Shown here piece after piece: positions 6,740 to 14,804 of a stretch of DNA of 64,000 nucleotides. The first letter of the stretch is position 1. Every line of letters begins with the position of its first letter. The stretch is taken from positions 1-64,000 of IMG/VR virus record IMGVR_UViG_3300033984_000205. One strand, 5' to 3'. The translations under genes were made by a program, and so were the position numbers. The DNA comes from a virus. The notes beneath the pieces are model-generated. The model was not told the DNA's origin and searched no databases. It saw only the letters and a list, made by a program, of their open reading frames with translations.

Positions 6740-7768
6740 ATGAGCCAATATCAATATAATTCAGATAACTTGCATAGAAGAGGTTTTATTAGTAAGGAAA
6801 GCATTTTAAGTTTAGTCACTCAGGAACAGATATTTGAGTTAGTATTCAATTTTATTCCTCAAGAGTTTGATTATGTGGTGTCTCCTTTAAGAAAAGATAG
6901 AACTCCAGGATGTTGGTTTAGTTACCATACTAATGGAGTTCTTTATTTTATTGATTTTGCTTATAGCAGAACTCATAGTGATTGTTTTAACCTAATTCAA
7001 GACTTTTTTAAATTTCCTAATTTCTATTTGACTTTAGAATATGTCCATAAAACCTTAATACAAGGTAAAACAGGCTTAGAGCCTATTATACAAAAAGAAG
7101 ACAGTATCAAAGTAGTCAAAGAAAAAGTTAAACTCCTAATTGAAGCAAGGCAATATACCTCTGCTGATGTGAAATTTTGGTCTCAATATGGTATTAGAAA
7201 GAAACATTTAGTTGAAGACAGGGTCTTTCCTGTACAAAAGTTATTTGCTTTGAACACTAAATCAGGTAGTCATATAATTGATTGTAAAGATATTGCATAC
7301 AGTTATAATGATTTTCCTGAATCTAGAAAGAAAGTCTATTTTCCTATGAGAGAAGGTAGTAGAAGGTTCTTAACTAATTGCACAAAGAATGATGTAGGTG
7401 GCATCAATTCCTTAATGCCTTATGGTAAAGAACTCATAATTACTAAATCTTATAAAGATTATAGGGTACTGAAGAATAGTGGCAAGAATGTGATTTGGTT
7501 TCAAAATGAAGGTATGATGCCCAATGATTTAATCTTAAATCAGTTGGTTAAAAATTTTGTTAATATCATTGTATGGTTTGATAATGATCAACCTGGTATT
7601 ATAGCTTCTGAAAAAATTAAAACTCATATTAATAATATTGTTCCAGGTAAGGCAAAGAATTTGTGGCTTCCAGAAAGAAGTCTAGAAGTAGGTATAAAAG
7701 ACCCTTCAGACTGTATTGCTAAAGACAAATCATTATTTACTCAATTCTTAAAAGATTTTACAAAATGA
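6740..7768 (+). CDS. DnaG/gp4-like primase with Toprim domain
   Basis: 342 residues. The N-terminal domain carries SPLRKDRTPGCWFSY at 48-62 and DCFNLIQDF at 81-89, which match the fold of CHC2-type primase zinc domains (the SPFRxDxxPS motif). The four zinc-binding Cys/His residues are missing. The C-terminal Toprim domain has ELIITKSYKD at 231-240 and the metal motif DNDQPG at 281-286, then KDPSD at 320-324. A Lys replaces the usual Toprim Glu, a form I associate with Bacteroidota phage primases. It would make RNA primers for the polymerase encoded upstream. Its stop overlaps the next ATG (ATGA). Confidence 0.85.
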   Translation: MSQYQYNSDNLHRRGFISKESILSLVTQEQIFELVFNFIPQEFDYVVSPLRKDRTPGCWFSYHTNGVLYFIDFAYSRTHSDCFNLIQDFFKFPNFYLTLEYVHKTLIQGKTGLEPIIQKEDSIKVVKEKVKLLIEARQYTSADVKFWSQYGIRKKHLVEDRVFPVQKLFALNTKSGSHIIDCKDIAYSYNDFPESRKKVYFPMREGSRRFLTNCTKNDVGGINSLMPYGKELIITKSYKDYRVLKNSGKNVIWFQNEGMMPNDLILNQLVKNFVNIIVWFDNDQPGIIASEKIKTHINNIVPGKAKNLWLPERSLEVGIKDPSDCIAKDKSLFTQFLKDFTK

Positions 7769-8298
7769 ATTTTAAGCATATTCATTACTCTTGGAGACCT
7801 CTTCTGAGTGAATTTAACACAGATGCTTTCCTTTACTTCAAAAATGAATTGTTACCCAAAGAAAAATATTACCCTGAAGCTGATGAAGTCTTCAGGGTTT
7901 TTTCTATGCCTGTATCAGAAATTAAGGTTGTGCTAATAGCTAGAGAAGAAGCTTCTCCTATAGTACAAGAAGGCCTTTTCTTCTTAAGAATGTCCCTAAC
8001 TTTTGGGGCAACCACAGACCATAGTGAATATTGGGAACCATTCATTAAAAAGGTTATCTATTTTATTGCTAGGAGTAATCCTTGCATTTGGCTTTTGCCA
8101 ACAACAAAATCACAAAGTTATACAGCTAATCTACCTGCTAAAACTATATTTAATGTGATAAAGTATACTGATGAAACTATTCATCATATCCCTTTCAATG
8201 TAGATTACAACTATGTGTTTAAAGGGATATATATTAACCTTAAGCATGTAAACCTCCTTCTTAAAAAGAAAGGATTAACTGAATTAAATAATTTTTAA
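7765..8298 (+). CDS. UDG-fold protein, catalytic motifs degenerate
   Basis: A 177-residue protein with the outline of family 1 uracil-DNA glycosylase. It has SWRPLLSEF at 9-17, then YYPEADEVFRVFSMP, then the strand KVVLIAR, where UDG has the GQDPYH water-activating loop. Here that loop reads AREEAS (59-64), so the catalytic Asp is absent. The HPSP DNA-minor-groove motif appears as HIPF (141-144). The tail (VFKG then VNLLLKKKGLTEL) matches the UDG C-terminal helix. It is therefore probably not a glycosylase. Poxvirus D4 shows that a UDG fold can serve as a polymerase processivity subunit. The gene is coupled to the primase gene. Confidence 0.65.
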   Translation: MNFKHIHYSWRPLLSEFNTDAFLYFKNELLPKEKYYPEADEVFRVFSMPVSEIKVVLIAREEASPIVQEGLFFLRMSLTFGATTDHSEYWEPFIKKVIYFIARSNPCIWLLPTTKSQSYTANLPAKTIFNVIKYTDETIHHIPFNVDYNYVFKGIYINLKHVNLLLKKKGLTELNNF

Positions 8299-8309
8299 AA
8301 ATTAAAACC

Positions 8310-8969
8310 ATGAGTGATGTACAAACTCCACAAAGAGAAATAACTATCTATGCTACTAGAGGTGGCCAAATGAAAAAAATCATGACTAATGCAAGTACTT
8401 GGGGAGAATTACAACCTCTTGTAAGAGCAGAAGGATTTGATTTAAGTTCTTTATTAGCAGCAGAAAACATTAACAAGTCTGACTTAGTAAATGATTTAGC
8501 TGTGTTGCCAGCAACAGATTTTAGATTATTCTTAAGACCAAAACAAACTAAGTCTGGTGCTTTAGACAGAAAAGAATGTTTTGCTGCTATCAAAATTTAT
8601 TTAGTAAATCATCCCCAAGATAAAGCTAAATTTACTGTTGATGGTAAAAATGTAACTCAATTGAGTACTGCTATAGTTCAAGACCTAGTTGCTAAGTATA
8701 TTGGTGGTATTAAATCTGAATCAAGTACTACTATAGCTTCTGAAACAATTAAAGAAGTTAAGTATGTTGCAGAAACTCCAACTAATGCTGATTTAACAGA
8801 CATTGAAAGAGTAGAAGAAGCTTTGTCTTTAATATCTACCTTGAAACAGTATGATGCTTATTACAAAGTTCTTAAGCATTTAGGAAAACTTCGTTTTCAA
8901 ATTTCTCCTGAAGCTAGACAATCTGAAGAAGATGAGCTAGCTAAAGAAGCTAGAGAATTAGGTTACTAG
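8310..8969 (+). CDS. Ubiquitin-like beta-grasp protein (PRTRC-C-like)
   Basis: 219 residues. Residues about 9-83 look like a beta-grasp (ubiquitin/ThiS-like) domain: strand EITIYAT, hairpin with GGQMKKIM, a helix starting TWGELQPLVRAEG, and a last strand DFRLFLRPKQTKSG. This resembles the bacterial PRTRC protein C. A helical second domain (84-140), a Ser/Thr linker and a C-terminal helical region rich in Glu follow. The fold ends at K81-S82-G83, a possible point for proteolytic exposure of a Gly C-terminus. Downstream genes encode a JAMM isopeptidase and an E1-like enzyme, which is the main support for a conjugation role. A hairpin terminator follows directly. Confidence 0.65.
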   Translation: MSDVQTPQREITIYATRGGQMKKIMTNASTWGELQPLVRAEGFDLSSLLAAENINKSDLVNDLAVLPATDFRLFLRPKQTKSGALDRKECFAAIKIYLVNHPQDKAKFTVDGKNVTQLSTAIVQDLVAKYIGGIKSESSTTIASETIKEVKYVAETPTNADLTDIERVEEALSLISTLKQYDAYYKVLKHLGKLRFQISPEARQSEEDELAKEARELGY

Positions 8970-8977
8970 TATTAATT

Positions 8978-9013
8978 AAGGGCTTATGTAATGTAAGCCC
9001 TTTAATTTCTTTA
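8978..9013 (+). terminator. Hairpin terminator/attenuator after the Ubl gene
   Basis: A 9-base-pair stem (8978-8986 with 8994-9002; core GGGCTTA / TAAGCCC) has a 7-base loop and is followed by TTAATTTCTTT. It lies between the ubiquitin-like gene and the next gene on the same strand. It would partly end transcription, giving more Ubl mRNA than mRNA for the downstream enzymes. Confidence 0.7.
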
Positions 9014-9015
9014 TT

Positions 9016-10212
9016 ATGTCAAGAAGTATAAAAGATAATACAACAGATCCTCTTAAAAAGTTTCTAAACAATGCATGTTTACTAGGTACTCATAAGAATA
9101 AGAAGTTTTTAGGAAAACTATTTGACAAGCAATTTATTGCTATTCCTGGAGCAGATCCTACATCAGATATTCAGAAAGTAAAATCCGACTTCTTTAAGAT
9201 ATTAGACTTATTTGAAGAAAAGTATAAAGGGAAAGCTGATTTAGGTTTTTATCATGAGTCAGGTTTACAAAGGATTATTCCTTATTTTAAAGTTCTTTAT
9301 CCAAAATTTACTATTACTAATAGTCAAGGTAGAAGTCATGAAATAAGAGATTTATTTGTATACCATAGTTTTAAATTTACTAGAGGTTCTGTGCATCCTT
9401 GGAAATTAGAGGGTGGTAGGTTTTCTAAAACTGATTTAGAGATTACCTCAGGGTATCAACAAAGTCATTTAGGAAGTCACAGTGGTTGGAGTTCTAATCC
9501 TTTTTATTGTTCCTATTTTTGTGTAGGAGGAGATACTGATGTAAGTAGAATGCTAGCTGAATTTGAAGTAGAGATGGATATGGATAGGTATGAATTATTT
9601 TTATTTTGTGTAGATAGTATGATTACTTGGGAATCTTTAGAGGGTGTACCTTTTATTAGAATGGAAGTAATTAAAAATGCTAATTCTGGTAGAGTAACTA
9701 ATACTAATCCTAATTATGAAGAAGGAATAGTTCAAGCTATTCTAACTGAAAAAATACCTTTAGATGTAGATTTTTACATCTCTGATGGTATTTACAAAAT
9801 TCATCCTAATTTAAGAGCTTCTAATTTTATTAAAAAAATAGTTTTAAAACATTACACATTTAATGTAGCTAAGAGTATTATTGTTAGTAAAACTCCTAAT
9901 ACTTTTGATCATTATTTACAAATGAAAGCAGAAGGAGAAGTCTTAAAGCAAGTTAACAAAGTCACTGTACCAAAAGAATACACTATTTTTAGAGGAAGGA
10001 AACTTTATCCTAAAGTAGTTAGAGAAGATAGGAGAAAAAATACTCCTATTTCAATTGAAGATTATATTGTTTATCCTAAATTTTTAGAAAATGTCCTTAG
10101 AAAACTTGAGTCAAGAATCTATGAGAAAGCAGTTGTCAAGAATGCAACTAGACTCTATCATACCAGTAATAATGCCAGTAGAGGTATTACATCAGATACA
10201 GTATCTCTGTAA
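9016..10212 (+). CDS. Unknown protein of the Ubl cassette, possible E2-like domain
   Basis: A 398-residue protein between the Ubl and JAB genes. I do not recognise it with certainty. Residues about 75-185 have a strand-rich pattern (KFTITNSQGRSHEIRDLFV) followed by GYQQSHLGSH at 146-155 and NPFYCSYFCVGG at 161-172. This order, a His-containing turn, a short spacer and a Cys near a Val-Gly turn, recalls the HPH...CLG arrangement of bacterial E2-like families. C169, or C165, would be the thioester candidate. The C-terminal half is basic with no known motif. The end overlaps the JAB reading frame by 122 bases. E2 identity is a hypothesis, best tested by structure prediction. Confidence 0.6.
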   Translation: MSRSIKDNTTDPLKKFLNNACLLGTHKNKKFLGKLFDKQFIAIPGADPTSDIQKVKSDFFKILDLFEEKYKGKADLGFYHESGLQRIIPYFKVLYPKFTITNSQGRSHEIRDLFVYHSFKFTRGSVHPWKLEGGRFSKTDLEITSGYQQSHLGSHSGWSSNPFYCSYFCVGGDTDVSRMLAEFEVEMDMDRYELFLFCVDSMITWESLEGVPFIRMEVIKNANSGRVTNTNPNYEEGIVQAILTEKIPLDVDFYISDGIYKIHPNLRASNFIKKIVLKHYTFNVAKSIIVSKTPNTFDHYLQMKAEGEVLKQVNKVTVPKEYTIFRGRKLYPKVVREDRRKNTPISIEDYIVYPKFLENVLRKLESRIYEKAVVKNATRLYHTSNNASRGITSDTVSL

Positions 10213-11275
10213 AAATATTTCAAAAGTAGAGTGGTCAGGTGCTCTATTTTATACTACTGAAGGTAGTATTGAAAAACCTGAATTTTTCAAAATTACTTTA
10301 AAAACAATCCTTCCTTTAGATATGGGTTCTCAAGCCTATACTGAATACAATCTTGATGAAAGATTTATGGATTTTATTGAAGAAGACTTTGAAGAAAGAT
10401 GCACTTGGAAACTTGGTCATATCCATAGCCATAACAGTATGGCTGTATTCTTTTCAGGTACAGATATGGCAGAGCTAAATGATAATGCTCCAGCACACAA
10501 TTTTTACTTGTCTTTGATTGTAAACAATGCTATGGATTTCTTAGCTAAAGTTGCATTTATAGGAGAAGCTAAAAAAGATATTAAAGATGTCCCTTATACT
10601 GCTAAGAATGTAGAAGGTAATAATTATATCATTGAAAGACAAGACTTTCAAGTTAATAGCCAAAAGTTATTTATTTTTGACTGTCAGATTTATAGTGACT
10701 TACAAGAACTTTCAATTACTGAACAGTTTAGAGATCAAGTGGCTAAGATTATGATACCTAAACCTGTAAAGACTTTTCCCAGACAAGAACCTTGGAACAA
10801 ACCTCAAGAGCCTTGGAAGAAACCTAGTTTACCTGCTCACACTAATAATCAGAAAAGTCTTTTTGATGATTGGGATTCTCCTTACACTCCTGGTAAACAA
10901 GCAATAGATGATTTGGCAGAGTATGACTTAAAAGCACAATCTATTTACAATTTTGCTAAAGAGTTATTTAATTACAGTACTCAAGAGTCAGATGAATTAG
11001 TAGATATAGAAGAAGTTCTTGATCTTTTAGCAGAGTATGATTTATCTCCTCAAGAGATAGCTAAAAGTGTAATTACAGACTATGCTAAAACTTTTGCTAC
11101 ACATTTTCCTAATGCTTCAGCAACTGATTTTGTAGAATACACTCATGAAACTCTAGATTTACTAGAAGATATAGTAATGATGTATCCTGAAATCAAATTG
11201 ACCATTAAAACAATTACATCAATGATTAATAATTTTATATCACATGAGACAAAGGGATACAAGTCAGCAAAGTAG
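10091..11275 (+). CDS. JAMM/JAB-domain isopeptidase (deubiquitinase-like)
   Basis: 394 residues. The N-terminal 180 residues form a JAB/MPN+ domain with a complete JAMM zinc motif: E47 (in VEWSGALFY), H112-S113-H114, seven residues, then S122 and D125 (SGTD). This matches H-x-H-x7-S-x-x-D exactly, so an active zinc metalloprotease is expected. Such enzymes cut after ubiquitin-like domains. A Pro/Trp-rich linker (about 220-245) and an acidic, helical C-terminal region (260-394) follow, perhaps for substrate binding. The start at 10091 overlaps the previous gene strongly. In-frame ATGs at 10121, 10142 and 10172 are alternatives. PRTRC protein A is a known JAB-domain relative. Confidence 0.88.
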   Translation: MSLENLSQESMRKQLSRMQLDSIIPVIMPVEVLHQIQYLCKNISKVEWSGALFYTTEGSIEKPEFFKITLKTILPLDMGSQAYTEYNLDERFMDFIEEDFEERCTWKLGHIHSHNSMAVFFSGTDMAELNDNAPAHNFYLSLIVNNAMDFLAKVAFIGEAKKDIKDVPYTAKNVEGNNYIIERQDFQVNSQKLFIFDCQIYSDLQELSITEQFRDQVAKIMIPKPVKTFPRQEPWNKPQEPWKKPSLPAHTNNQKSLFDDWDSPYTPGKQAIDDLAEYDLKAQSIYNFAKELFNYSTQESDELVDIEEVLDLLAEYDLSPQEIAKSVITDYAKTFATHFPNASATDFVEYTHETLDLLEDIVMMYPEIKLTIKTITSMINNFISHETKGYKSAK

Positions 11276-11942
11276 ATTTAAAGATGCCCCATGGTTTCCT
11301 AGAAACAATGAAATTTGTTTAGTAGGTGGAGCTGGTGGTATAGGTTCTTGGTTATGTTTTTTCTTAACTAAGATAGGTTTCAAAGTCAATGTTTATGATT
11401 TTGACACTGTTGAAGACCATAACTTAGGTGGTCAGTTATTTCAACAATCAGATATTGGTAGTCCTAAAGTAACAGCAATTTATAGAATAGTACAGACTTT
11501 TTGTGGAGACAGAGTTTCTACTTTTAATGAAAGGATTACTAGTAATACACCTCATCATTACTATAGTTTTTCTGCTTTTGACAATATGGAAGCTAGAAGA
11601 ACTTTGTTTATGAACTGGAAACAGTCTTGGGGAAGTTGCCCTGATGGAGTTACAGCTATATTCATAGATGGTAGACTAGAGATAGAGCAATTACAGATAT
11701 TTTGTGTTACTCCTGAAAATGCTGATAAGTATGAAAGAGAACATCTTTTCCATGACAGTGCTGTAGAAGAAGCTCCATGTACAATGAAGCAAACTTCTCA
11801 TACTGCTGCTATGATAGGCTCTCTTATGTCAGCTTTCTTTACCAATCATATTACCAATGTTTATTTGGGTGAGACTCTCAGAGAAGTCCCATTCTATTAT
11901 GAGTTTGTAGTTCCTATGAACTTCACACAATCAGAGTTATGA
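11244..11942 (+). CDS. E1/ThiF/MoeB-like adenylyltransferase
   Basis: A 232-residue Rossmann-type activating enzyme. Nucleotide loop GGAGGIGS lies at 28-35, DFDTVEDHNLGGQLF at 52-66, IGSPK with Lys75, and AFDNMEARR at 111-119 with the Mg-binding Asp113. These align with MoeB/ThiF, but the arginine finger of NxxRQ is a Gly here (NLGGQ). A conserved-looking APCTMKQTSHTAA segment places C179 where E1-like enzymes have the thioester Cys. The family adenylates the C-terminal Gly of ubiquitin-like proteins. It overlaps the JAB gene by 32 bases and the next gene by 4, so it belongs to the same unit. ThiF-type activity is expected but the Arg loss leaves some doubt. Confidence 0.88.
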   Translation: MRQRDTSQQSRFKDAPWFPRNNEICLVGGAGGIGSWLCFFLTKIGFKVNVYDFDTVEDHNLGGQLFQQSDIGSPKVTAIYRIVQTFCGDRVSTFNERITSNTPHHYYSFSAFDNMEARRTLFMNWKQSWGSCPDGVTAIFIDGRLEIEQLQIFCVTPENADKYEREHLFHDSAVEEAPCTMKQTSHTAAMIGSLMSAFFTNHITNVYLGETLREVPFYYEFVVPMNFTQSEL

Positions 11943-13084
11943 GATTGACTTATTCCACTATAGGAGTCTTTACTCGTTCTCTATTTGATATAACTGCTGT
12001 TGCTGCTAATGAGTACATTCCTATTAATACTTTTAATAAAGAGTATACACTAGGAGATGGACTTAGATATTATAATAAACCTAGTTTACAAGATGCTAAC
12101 TATAAACCAAACACTCTTAAGAATATTAAAGATGGTTTTGAAATGGGTAATAGTACTAGAAGAATTAATATCAATAACAGAAACTATTTTATATCAAAAG
12201 GTCTCTTTCTATCAGAAAATGGTACACCATTAATGGTATGTACTATGAAGAAAGAAGCCTATATGAATGCAGAAATACCTAAATTCTCTGATACAGGGTA
12301 TCATGCAAATTTCTCCTACACCAATTACGTTTTATTTTACTCCACTTCTTTTTTCACTGACCCTGGTCTAACTCCTTTAAACAGGAGACTTCAAAAAGAA
12401 ATATTACAATCTTGTTATGAAAAAGGTATAGAAGTCAGAGTACTGTCTTCCCTAGAAATAGAAAAGAATACCTTTGCAAGATTATTTGAAGTCAAGAAGA
12501 CAAAGTCATTGACACAATTAGAAGCCTATATGGAACAAGTACTGCCAAATTTCTTACACAATAATGGGGAGGACAACTTCATTGAGCAAGAATTTGCACC
12601 AGTAACTATCCATAGAGAAGAACTTTCTGTAGAAGAAGAAGCTCTCTTATTTGATAATGAAATGAGAGATTTAATTGTTGATTCTATTCAAAGAGAAGCT
12701 GAAAACACAATTCATTCTGGTTCTAATCTTAGTCTTAGTGTTGGTAGTAATCTTACTACAAGTACAGGTACAGGTACAACTACAAGTGGTCACTTTACAA
12801 TTGACACTACAAGTTATACTCATACTAGTACAGGATTAACTATGCCACCTAGACAAATGACAGAACTAGAAGAATTAGCTGCTGAAGCTGCCCAATATGA
12901 CCCACTTGAAGAATCTTCTGATGAAGAGGAATCTTTTGATGATGATGAAAACTATGGAGAAGAGTTTCATTGGGGAGATACAGAACATGCAGTAGAAATT
13001 GAAGAAATGCTTAGAGATGAAGAAACTGCCCATACAGTTTCAACATGGCAATCAGTTATACAGCTTATTGATGACACAGAGTAG
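11939..13084 (+). CDS. Unknown acidic Ser/Thr-rich protein coupled to the E1 gene
   Basis: A 381-residue protein of unknown family. Its ATG overlaps the E1 stop (ATGA), so it is almost certainly made together with the E1-like enzyme. The N-terminal 220 residues look globular. Residues about 257-303 are a low-complexity Ser/Thr/Gly tract, and 317-381 are strongly acidic (EESSDEEESFDDDENYGEE). It lacks lysine in the last 80 residues, which argues against that part being a modified substrate. It could be an adaptor, a target or an inhibitor within the Ubl cassette. I see no motif that decides. Confidence 0.75.
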   Translation: MRLTYSTIGVFTRSLFDITAVAANEYIPINTFNKEYTLGDGLRYYNKPSLQDANYKPNTLKNIKDGFEMGNSTRRININNRNYFISKGLFLSENGTPLMVCTMKKEAYMNAEIPKFSDTGYHANFSYTNYVLFYSTSFFTDPGLTPLNRRLQKEILQSCYEKGIEVRVLSSLEIEKNTFARLFEVKKTKSLTQLEAYMEQVLPNFLHNNGEDNFIEQEFAPVTIHREELSVEEEALLFDNEMRDLIVDSIQREAENTIHSGSNLSLSVGSNLTTSTGTGTTTSGHFTIDTTSYTHTSTGLTMPPRQMTELEELAAEAAQYDPLEESSDEEESFDDDENYGEEFHWGDTEHAVEIEEMLRDEETAHTVSTWQSVIQLIDDTE

Positions 13085-13131: not shown

Positions 13132-13644
13132 ATGGGAGTTGGAGCAACAAACAAAAGAAAGGGGAGCACTGCAGAAAGATATTATGCCAAATTCTTTAGG
13201 GAACTAGGGTTTAATTTCTGTGAGACCTCTAGATTTGTAAGCAAAAAGCATGACAATGCTAAGATAGACTTGATGTATATTCCTTTTAATCTACAAATCA
13301 AGGCTGGTGTCCAACAGAATATGAATCCTGGGAAGGAATTATTTATGATGGCTACCTCTATTGCAGGCATGTTTCCCCTTGAAGATGAAGTTCATAAAAA
13401 ACCTTGTTTGTTAATTCATTACAAGCAAGGTAAACCTGGAGCCAGAAGGACTCCAGAGATGGAAATGGTGTATATGTCTATGATACAGTTTGATTTATTT
13501 AGAAGTAAAAGTCCTAGTTTAGAGTATTCAATGATGAAAGACTTTAAATTTGACCTAAACTCTGAGTTTAAAACTATTGTAGGCATGACACTTGACCATT
13601 TTAAAAGTGAAGTAATCTTAAAACAATATGTAACATGTCCGTAA
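13132..13644 (+). CDS. PD-(D/E)XK nuclease (Holliday-junction resolvase-like)
   Basis: A 170-residue nuclease fold. RKGSTAERYYAKFF places Glu15 on helix 1, KIDLMYI gives Asp46, and NLQIKAG gives the Q55-x-K57 form of the (D/E)xK pair. This is the layout of small archaeal-type Hjc/phage resolvases and restriction-like nucleases. A role in resolving branched replication intermediates or in recombination fits its position after the helicases and Sak4-like ATPase. The gene has a 47-base leader (13085-13131) and overlaps the next nuclease gene by 10 bases. Substrate specificity cannot be told from sequence. Confidence 0.78.
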   Translation: MGVGATNKRKGSTAERYYAKFFRELGFNFCETSRFVSKKHDNAKIDLMYIPFNLQIKAGVQQNMNPGKELFMMATSIAGMFPLEDEVHKKPCLLIHYKQGKPGARRTPEMEMVYMSMIQFDLFRSKSPSLEYSMMKDFKFDLNSEFKTIVGMTLDHFKSEVILKQYVTCP

Positions 13645-14804
13645 TTGTAGCAACAAAAGAAGAAGTACAAGAGTACTATGAATCTGATGCCTTAGGGCAA
13701 TCAAAATTAAAATTATTACTAGGAGATCTAGGTTCTTTTCACAAAGAATTTGACTCTTCAGCAGAACACTTTATGATAGGTTCTGCAGTAGATTGTATAT
13801 TAACTAATTCAATAGAAGCCTTTAACGAGGACTATTATATCTCAAGTGTAGAAAAACTACCTTCTGATGCAGTAATAGAAATTCTAAAGTTAGTCTATGA
13901 AGATTTATTGCAGGACTATGCTGAACATTTAGAAGTAATTACAGGACAGCAGGAATCTGTTTCTGTTACTCCATTTCATGAGTTTGTAGGAGAGCTTGGA
14001 GAGTGGAGTACTTATATTCTAGATGCATGTGAAAAAACAGGATGGCAACCTAGATGGGGTGCTGATGCTAAACTAAAGAATATTGTAGAACCTAGTTCTA
14101 GCTATTTCTTAGATATGTGTTTAGGTTTTGGTAAGACTATTATTAGTCAAACTCAGAACAACACCATCAAAAGTATTGTACATTCTTTACAAACTAATCC
14201 AAGAACAGCTAGTTTCTTTGACAGAGAATTTTATTCAGATATGCCTTTTTATACAATGTATTATCAATTTCCTATTTACTTTGAGTATAGGGGAGTAGAT
14301 TGTAAAGCATTGTTAGATATGGTGTTTATTGAAAGAGATGAAGAGGGAAAGATTCTATCTATCCTTGGTGCAGATTTGAAAACTATGAATGGAAATACAT
14401 TTTATTTCCCTAGTAGTGTTAGAGCAAGAAGATATGACATCCAAGCTGCTTGGTATAGTCTTGCTCTACAAAAACATTTTGCAGTTCCTGATGGTTCTAA
14501 TGCAATTAAACCTTTCCAATTTGTAGTAGAATCTACTTCATTTCAAGGAAAACCTTTAAATTTTGTTGTTGATAAGTCTCTCCTAAATATAGGAAGGTAT
14601 GGTAGAAAAGCTATATCTTTACATGAGTCAACTATGTTTCAAGAGCATCTTGAAGCTAGTGCCATTCTACAATATGAAATTAAAGGCTTTGAACAACTCT
14701 TAGAAATGTATGTTTACCATTGTGAAAATGGTTTTACAGAAGAAAGAGAAATTCAAGAAACAGGTTTAACTCCATTAAAACTTGATTGGGATGGTATTAT
14801 CTAA
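13635..14804 (+). CDS. RecB/exonuclease VIII-like PD-(D/E)XK nuclease
   Basis: A 389-residue nuclease. The active-site order is Asp228 (ALLDMVF), then D247-L-K249 (GADLKTM), then the RecB-type motif YDIQAAWY with Q270 and Y274. An N-terminal GSAVDCILT segment matches the helix seen in RecE/DUF3799-type exonucleases. These degrade one strand of double-stranded DNA to prepare ends for annealing proteins, so with the Sak4-like ATPase and SSB it could form a recombination set. A long insertion (60-200) separates the N-terminal helix from the core. Overlaps the genes on both sides. Confidence 0.82.
   Translation: MSVIVATKEEVQEYYESDALGQSKLKLLLGDLGSFHKEFDSSAEHFMIGSAVDCILTNSIEAFNEDYYISSVEKLPSDAVIEILKLVYEDLLQDYAEHLEVITGQQESVSVTPFHEFVGELGEWSTYILDACEKTGWQPRWGADAKLKNIVEPSSSYFLDMCLGFGKTIISQTQNNTIKSIVHSLQTNPRTASFFDREFYSDMPFYTMYYQFPIYFEYRGVDCKALLDMVFIERDEEGKILSILGADLKTMNGNTFYFPSSVRARRYDIQAAWYSLALQKHFAVPDGSNAIKPFQFVVESTSFQGKPLNFVVDKSLLNIGRYGRKAISLHESTMFQEHLEASAILQYEIKGFEQLLEMYVYHCENGFTEEREIQETGLTPLKLDWDGII

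Follow-up and report, generated by a model that had tools for sequence, protein, structure and literature searches.

A predicted ubiquitin-like conjugation cassette in crAss-like phages that alternates with rIIA-rIIB in one genomic slot

Ubiquitin-like conjugation in bacteria is known mainly as a form of anti-phage defence, as in the CBASS and Bil systems. Here we describe a set of genes of related type that is carried by bacterial viruses of gut and environmental origin. The DNA studied is a window of 64,000 nt (the whole stretch that was analysed), which forms part of the 94,105-base virus record IMGVR_UViG_3300033984_000205. Five genes at positions 8310-13084 of its + strand encode, in order, a ubiquitin-like protein (Ubl), a 398-residue protein here termed P398, a JAB/JAMM metalloprotease, an E1/ThiF-type enzyme and an acidic fifth protein. 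A sequence-only reading of the window had proposed a conjugation cassette of five consecutive same-strand genes, and all five open reading frames (ORFs) were found in place.

The PRTRC modules of plasmids and integrative and conjugative elements (class 6d of Iyer et al. 2006) resemble the cassette in several respects. Their gene order, C-(F)-B-A-ThiF, parallels the phage order Ubl-P398-JAB-E1, and the phage E1 and JAB are related by profile to PRTRC ThiF (hhalign probability 99, E = 2e-18) and to PRTRC protein A (TIGR03735; probability 94, E = 1.5e-7), respectively. TIGR03735 is also the commonest NCBIfam match of the phage JABs (11/26 members, best 3e-4), and the E1 scores 41 bits against TIGR03736, for which the cut-off is 144.75. 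The conserved Ubl end is K-G in PRTRC and K-S-G in the phages, and both gene sets belong to mobile elements and lie next to genes for replication or partition, which for the plasmid PRTRC modules are ParB, dnaN or ssb.

In other respects the two differ. The similarity of P398 to PRTRC B is not significant by hhalign, although their Cys-x-Gly sites align; the comparison with PRTRC F is not significant either, and no PRTRC model is among the P398 matches. Both B and F were therefore rejected as homologues of P398. The phage Ubl has a long tail past its Gly whereas PRTRC C mostly stops there, and although the two have the same kind of fold, hhalign aligns just their terminal TK(S)G without significance and no PRTRC model is among the Ubl matches. 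In addition, the phage E1 lacks a usual arginine, the fifth gene has no identified counterpart, the carriers are lytic phages and no PRTRC ParB-related, E or F protein is annotated among the neighbours of relatives. Because no counterpart of PRTRC B, C, E, F or ParB was found, we do not file the cassette as PRTRC; we call it a phage-borne variant of prokaryotic Ubl-conjugation modules, one that would work like a PRTRC-type pathway. The parallel with PRTRC drawn by the sequence-only reading is supported. A search of the open-access literature found no functional study of PRTRC-type modules, for which the presence of the cassette in the cultured phages crAss001 and DAC15 would offer a genetic model.

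Other described systems share fewer or different features with the cassette. The C. subterraneum ubiquitin operon (Ub, E1, E2, RING, Rpn11) likewise has a pro-Ubl extended past its Gly and adjacent JAMM, E1 and (in the phage, candidate) E2 genes, and the structure or sequence matches of the cassette proteins include its Ub and Rpn11. However, no RING was found in the phage cassette, which is viral and whose Ubl has an extension far above 9 residues and a K-S-G rather than a di-Gly end. CBASS Cap2/Cap3, Bil and Bub also have E1 and JAB-type enzymes and E2-like domains, and the phage E1 is weakly similar to them by hidden Markov model (HMM) and to the Cap2 and BubCD structures. Those systems are encoded by bacteria as operons, and the PADLOC E1-E2 models describe a fusion of the two enzymes, whereas the cassette consists of separate phage genes. 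Neither a CD-NTase with an effector nor BilA-D was found beside the cassette, which is surrounded by replication genes, and in PADLOC the E1 and JAB matched weakly while Ubl, P398 and the fifth protein had no match. The TAPI-TAPK proteins of lambda and T1 include a phage Ubl with a C-terminal domain plus a JAB, but they come without E1 or E2, belong to the tail genes and have the JAB fused to NlpC/P60 (PMC1779556). The T4-like rIIA-rIIB pair (a GHKL ATPase and its partner) is unrelated at the protein level but takes the place of the cassette in sister crAss-like phages.

Conservation of the gene set and exchange with rIIA-rIIB

Two features of the cassette are new: it is all-or-none, and it is mutually exclusive with rIIA-rIIB in one genomic slot. 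Scanning viral contigs with the E1 yielded 36 loci, and alignment-based scans with P398 and E1 as bait gave 121 and 244 contigs, respectively, of which the best 80 of each were taken; after loci with an identical core protein were merged, 114 distinct loci were left. Ubl, P398, JAB and E1 lie on one strand and in that order in 104 of these. Eight of the remaining 10 are truncated at contig ends, and in two a jumbo-phage E1 stands without the other cassette genes. Since two different genes served as bait, this co-occurrence was not built into the sampling. Purifying selection acts on the four core genes, which form an obligate unit beyond what chance would give. Neither outcome that would have refuted the sequence-only reading (no predicted beta-grasp in 8310-8969, or homologues in which the genes never occur together) was seen.

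The same gene set is present in the cultured or named phages crAss001 (gp79-gp75), DAC15, Flavobacterium phage FpV4 and cr85_1, in which the database labels are hypothetical, metalloprotease or thiamine biosynthesis protein. When bacterial and archaeal species genomes were scanned with the E1, just two contigs turned up, both from metagenome-assembled genomes and probably phage. In an open-access library we found no paper that links crAss-like phages to a ubiquitin pathway or describes these genes as a system, and neither ThiF nor ubiquitin comes up in the main text of Yutin 2021 or of the 2023 Crassvirales review.

In nearly all loci the cassette lies between primase and resolvase/exonuclease genes. 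We surveyed this slot in distinct loci anchored on the primase with at least 5.5 kb downstream; an alignment of primases that extended to crAss001-type sequences proved too divergent to scan with. The slot contained the cassette without rIIA in 33 loci, rIIA without the cassette in 9, neither in 5 and both in 0 (Fisher 1.5e-6, a value that overstates independence because the loci are related). Gene identities were assigned by PHROG 612 (4e-65) for rIIA and PHROG 609 (5e-27) for rIIB. Among 50 records of at least 80 kb, rIIA occurs in none of the 45 with E1 and in three of the five without it; as most of the 45 were selected on the basis of the cassette, information comes from the rIIA column alone.

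The exchange is seen in two gene orders. In the lineage of the window, the cassette or rIIAB stands between the uracil-DNA glycosylase (UDG) and resolvase genes, and in the Asinivirinae either one stands between primase and UDG. Within the latter, crAss001 has the cassette and cr116_1 has rIIAB (L329, 7998-12157) and no E1. A pair of rIIA-rIIB also stands in the cassette slot in L284, L285, L287, L289, L291, L292, L295 and L301. Neither gene set is found downstream of the primase in L230, L231, L233, L234 and L235. The slot of L231 and L235 contains a DUF2201 metallopeptidase/VWA protein and an AAA ATPase, and that of L233 (L230 is similar) contains ATP-grasp, C26 peptidase/amidotransferase, COOH.NH2 ligase and amidoligase-type genes.

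Proteins of the cassette

The Ubl gene (8310-8969, + strand; 219 aa) is predicted to encode a beta-grasp domain in residues 1-83 (8310..8558), which ends in K81-S82-G83, and a C-terminal tail in residues 84-219 (8559..8969). Its AlphaFold model, based on 27 sequences, has a mean pLDDT of 80 and a whole-chain pTM of 0.41, the folded part being the confident part. Strands at 9-15 and 20-26, a helix at 31-40 and strands at 48-52 and 71-77 give a strand-strand-helix-strand-strand (EEHEE) topology, i.e. a predicted beta-grasp across residues 9-77, and the best PDB matches by Foldseek are UBX, ubiquitin-like, SUMO and C. subterraneum ubiquitin structures (probability near 1, E ~1e-3). Pfam, NCBIfam and PHROGs contain no informative family for Ubl, P398 or the fifth protein.

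Several observations set Gly83 apart as a boundary. A (T/V/I)-K-S-G motif (K-S/A-G across the family) follows directly after the last Ubl strand, and Gly83 is kept in 111/111 sequences. Among four close relatives, the nonsynonymous substitution rate dN is 0.05-0.07 up to Gly83 but 0.33-0.45 from residue 84, so that the tail, composed of a small helical domain, a variable linker and an acidic end helix, changes ~5-10 times faster. Two relatives with rIIA, cr116_1 and L327, carry between that gene and the primase a separate gene of 82-94 codons, homologous to the Ubl segment after Gly83 (HMM E = 2e-5 and 3e-6); in cr116_1, its Met falls immediately past the KSGA of crAss001 gp79 in the alignment. 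(This gene was also considered as a Ubl and rejected, as it is homologous to the tail and not to the beta-grasp.) Because the stand-alone homologue starts there, the Ubl gene looks like a fusion with its seam at Gly83. Fusions of ubiquitin with ribosomal proteins also have their seam at Gly. The invariance of Gly83, the rate jump after it and the stand-alone homologue that begins there together suggest that the Ubl is probably a pro-protein that is cut by the JAB after Gly83. Such a seam would fit cleavage by the neighbouring JAMM enzyme, as archaeal pro-ubiquitin is cut by C. subterraneum Rpn11 (PMC5654768).

P398 (9016..10212, + strand) is the candidate E2. Its H151, C169 and G171 are present in 114/114 sequences, and N102, R135, S150, E206, S207, G210 and P212 are also invariant or nearly so; the protein has a WESxEGxP motif. 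The SH...CxG layout places a His upstream of the conserved Cys169 (codon 9520-9522), which is predicted to be catalytic. The AlphaFold model (91 sequences, pLDDT 90.6, pTM 0.82) has a helix at 52-70, strands at 74-80, 87-101, 107-122 and 125-139, the His/Cys loop and helices at 175-185 and 189-203. This predicted order, alpha-beta4-loop(Cys)-alpha-alpha, is suggestive of the UBC/RWD core. Among non-significant Foldseek matches, the kinetochore protein CENP-O, an RWD protein, ranks 2 and the TSG101 UEV domain ranks 26; a search of viral models returned crAss-like homologues and a few unnamed proteins. P398 is fairly likely to be E2-like, a role supported by the position and order Ubl-E2-JAB-E1, which parallels PRTRC, and by the E2-like member of class 6d operons (PMC1779556).

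The JAB gene (10091..11275, + strand; 394 aa) shares 122 bp (10091-10212) with the P398 gene in a different frame, an overlap that is shorter (62 bp) in crAss001. Its site, H112-x-H114-x7-S122-x2-D125 (10424-10465) plus the JAMM glutamate E47 (10229-10231), is essentially invariant, and its best solved-structure matches, weak by sequence, are CSN5 and C. subterraneum Rpn11.

The E1 gene (11244..11942, + strand; 232 aa) matches Pfam ThiF (7e-16) and NCBIfam PRTRC_ThiF (1e-10), with ThiF (PRK08644) the best NCBIfam model, and its PDB relatives are UBA5, MccB, SUMO E1, NEDD8 E1, Cap2 and BubCD. The ThiF motifs are complete save for one arginine: the ATP-binding Rossmann motif and the catalytic Asp and Lys are represented by GxGGxGS, D52, D54, N60, Q64, K75 and D113. 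Cys179 (11778-11780, in APCTMKQ), the candidate active-site residue, is present in all 111 sequences ungapped at this position. Its CT(M/L)K context resembles that of the catalytic cysteine of E1 enzymes; ThiF/MoeB enzymes also carry a Cys in this region. The E1s of crAss001 (gp76, L038:11545-12000) and DAC15 have ~100-150 additional N-terminal residues that are absent from the window E1. In four records (G023, G026, G029 and G031; loci L014, L074, L086 and L092) the E1 gene is in two separated pieces, possibly due to introns or insertions.

The fifth gene (11939..13084, + strand; 381 aa, acidic C-terminus) is joined to the E1 gene by an ATGA overlap, and in crAss001 and DAC15, too, the two genes overlap or abut. 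Its product belongs to the crAss001 gp75 family (hhalign probability 100, E = 6e-58) and might be an adaptor or E3-like protein. These results agree with the sequence-only reading on the Ubl fold, the complete JAB site, the E1 identity and the ATGA coupling, and they give its two unknown partners a family in one case and, in the other, a likely E2 role that would complete a PRTRC-like set.

A proposed pathway and competing explanations

We consider it likely that the cassette is a self-contained pathway for Ubl conjugation and deconjugation in the middle (replication) phase, with a purpose similar to that of rIIAB. The similar purpose is suggested by the replacement of one gene set by the other in the same slot, and this exchange provides a concrete, testable hypothesis on what the cassette is for. 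The JAMM protease would cut the pro-Ubl after Gly83 and free its K-S-G end, a step for which the boundary is strongly supported. The E1, recognizable as such, would adenylate Gly83 and may hold the Ubl on Cys179, and the Ubl would then move to Cys169 of the E2-like P398, in keeping with the invariance of this Cys and the suggestive fold. P398 would join the Ubl to a single protein or to a few, of host or phage origin, possibly with the help of the fifth protein as an adaptor, and the JAMM enzyme would take it off these again. Rather than serve biosynthesis or tail assembly, such a pathway would shield the phage during its replication from a response of the host. The protein-modification pathway of the sequence-only reading is thus retained but not its early action, since replication functions of crAss001 belong to the middle class by RNA-seq (10-30 min; PMC8375218). 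More tentatively, the virus may run a complete reversible pathway of pro-Ubl, E1, E2 and JAMM enzyme that stands in for rIIA-rIIB by tagging a host protein against defence. If the pathway is complete in these abundant gut phages, ubiquitin-type chemistry would be found on the attacking side as well.

Several points speak against this interpretation, the weakest of its parts being P398 as an E2 and the E1 arginine. Full-length P398 has no significant match to any solved fold in Foldseek, E2 folds included, and none to E2 profiles. Position 63 of the E1, where the usual adenylation arginine (N-x-x-R-Q) would stand, is Gly (102 sequences) or Asn (9), and catalysis could differ as a result. The Ubl tail might stay attached, JAMM cleavage and conjugation as a whole being predictions. 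Finally, lineages bearing rIIA are few, the Fisher test ignores kinship and absence from a fragment proves little.

The same conjugation chemistry might have a different target. The Ubl could modify phage replication or recombination proteins, such as the neighbouring primase, resolvase and exonuclease, as SUMO does on PCNA, and sharing the rIIAB slot would then be incidental. That nearly all loci have the cassette flanked by primase and resolvase/exonuclease genes is consistent with this possibility, as is the position of plasmid PRTRC modules beside ParB, dnaN or ssb. Yet we regard it as rather unlikely, because the cassette is dispensable: sister phages keep primase, UDG, resolvase and exonuclease but have rIIAB or other modules instead, and lying in the middle operon is a poor guide to the target. 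That the Ubl is a sulfur carrier, the thiocarboxylate of which (as in ThiS/MoaD) thiolates a metabolite, tRNA or cofactor, would fit the E1's membership in the ThiF family, its best NCBIfam model and the database label 'thiamine biosynthesis protein'. This is improbable considering that no sulfurtransferase or other thiamine gene is annotated among the neighbours and that the JAMM enzyme and the cysteine-bearing partner are always present. The invariant E1 Cys in CT(M/L)K, a context like that of catalytic E1 cysteines, also speaks against it, although ThiF/MoeB enzymes have a Cys in this region too.

Blocking of a bacterial Ubl defence was among the proposals of the sequence-only reading, and we found no direct evidence for it. 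A decoy E1 and Ubl, together with the JAMM enzyme, would strip or block conjugates of host Bil, CBASS type II or Bub; JAMM enzymes do deconjugate, and bacterial hosts can have such defences. However, the forward-pathway sites are kept in more than 110 sequences, whereas a decoy would need neither an intact E1 nor an invariant E2-like Cys, and PADLOC has nothing for Ubl, P398 and the fifth protein and little for the JAB; we thus deem this quite improbable. A role in lambda-like tail assembly (TAPI/TAPK) is very improbable. Some phages do employ a Ubl and a JAB there (PMC1779556), but the cassette lies in the replication block and includes an E1. Moreover, none of gp75-gp79 is mentioned in the main text of the crAss001 virion papers that were searched, and the crAss001 virion atlas names gp45, gp46, gp47, gp49 and gp50 as cargo.

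Flanking genes and further observations

The flanks, all on the + strand, place the cassette in a replication block, as had been supposed. Upstream are a DNA primase (6740..7768; PHROG 12622, 3e-86) and a shortened UDG-like protein (7765..8298; TIGR00628, 9e-6, and UDG annotation in relatives), and downstream are a RusA-like Holliday junction resolvase (13132..13644; PHROG 244, 5e-5) and an exonuclease VIII-like gene (13635..14804; PHROG 412, 6e-27). The UDG-like protein has 177 aa compared with ~240 aa in relatives, and UDG models match it best over the N-terminal 60 residues; it may be inactive.

Two other phages have E1 genes in different settings. In Xanthomonas phage PhiXhv-12 (227 kb; L041:5241-8615), a jumbo-phage E1 follows a protein of 892 aa whose HPHM...SLCLG motif looks E2-like, and homologues of the other cassette genes were not found at this locus. 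The 595-kb phage LR756511 (L044:6648-8570) has a JAB (FIHTHPNFSAHYSGRDD), a 226-aa frame and an E1 in succession, i.e. another phage E1-JAB set. The opposite strand of the window contains an ORF of 4398 aa, which would be expected in a crAss-like phage.

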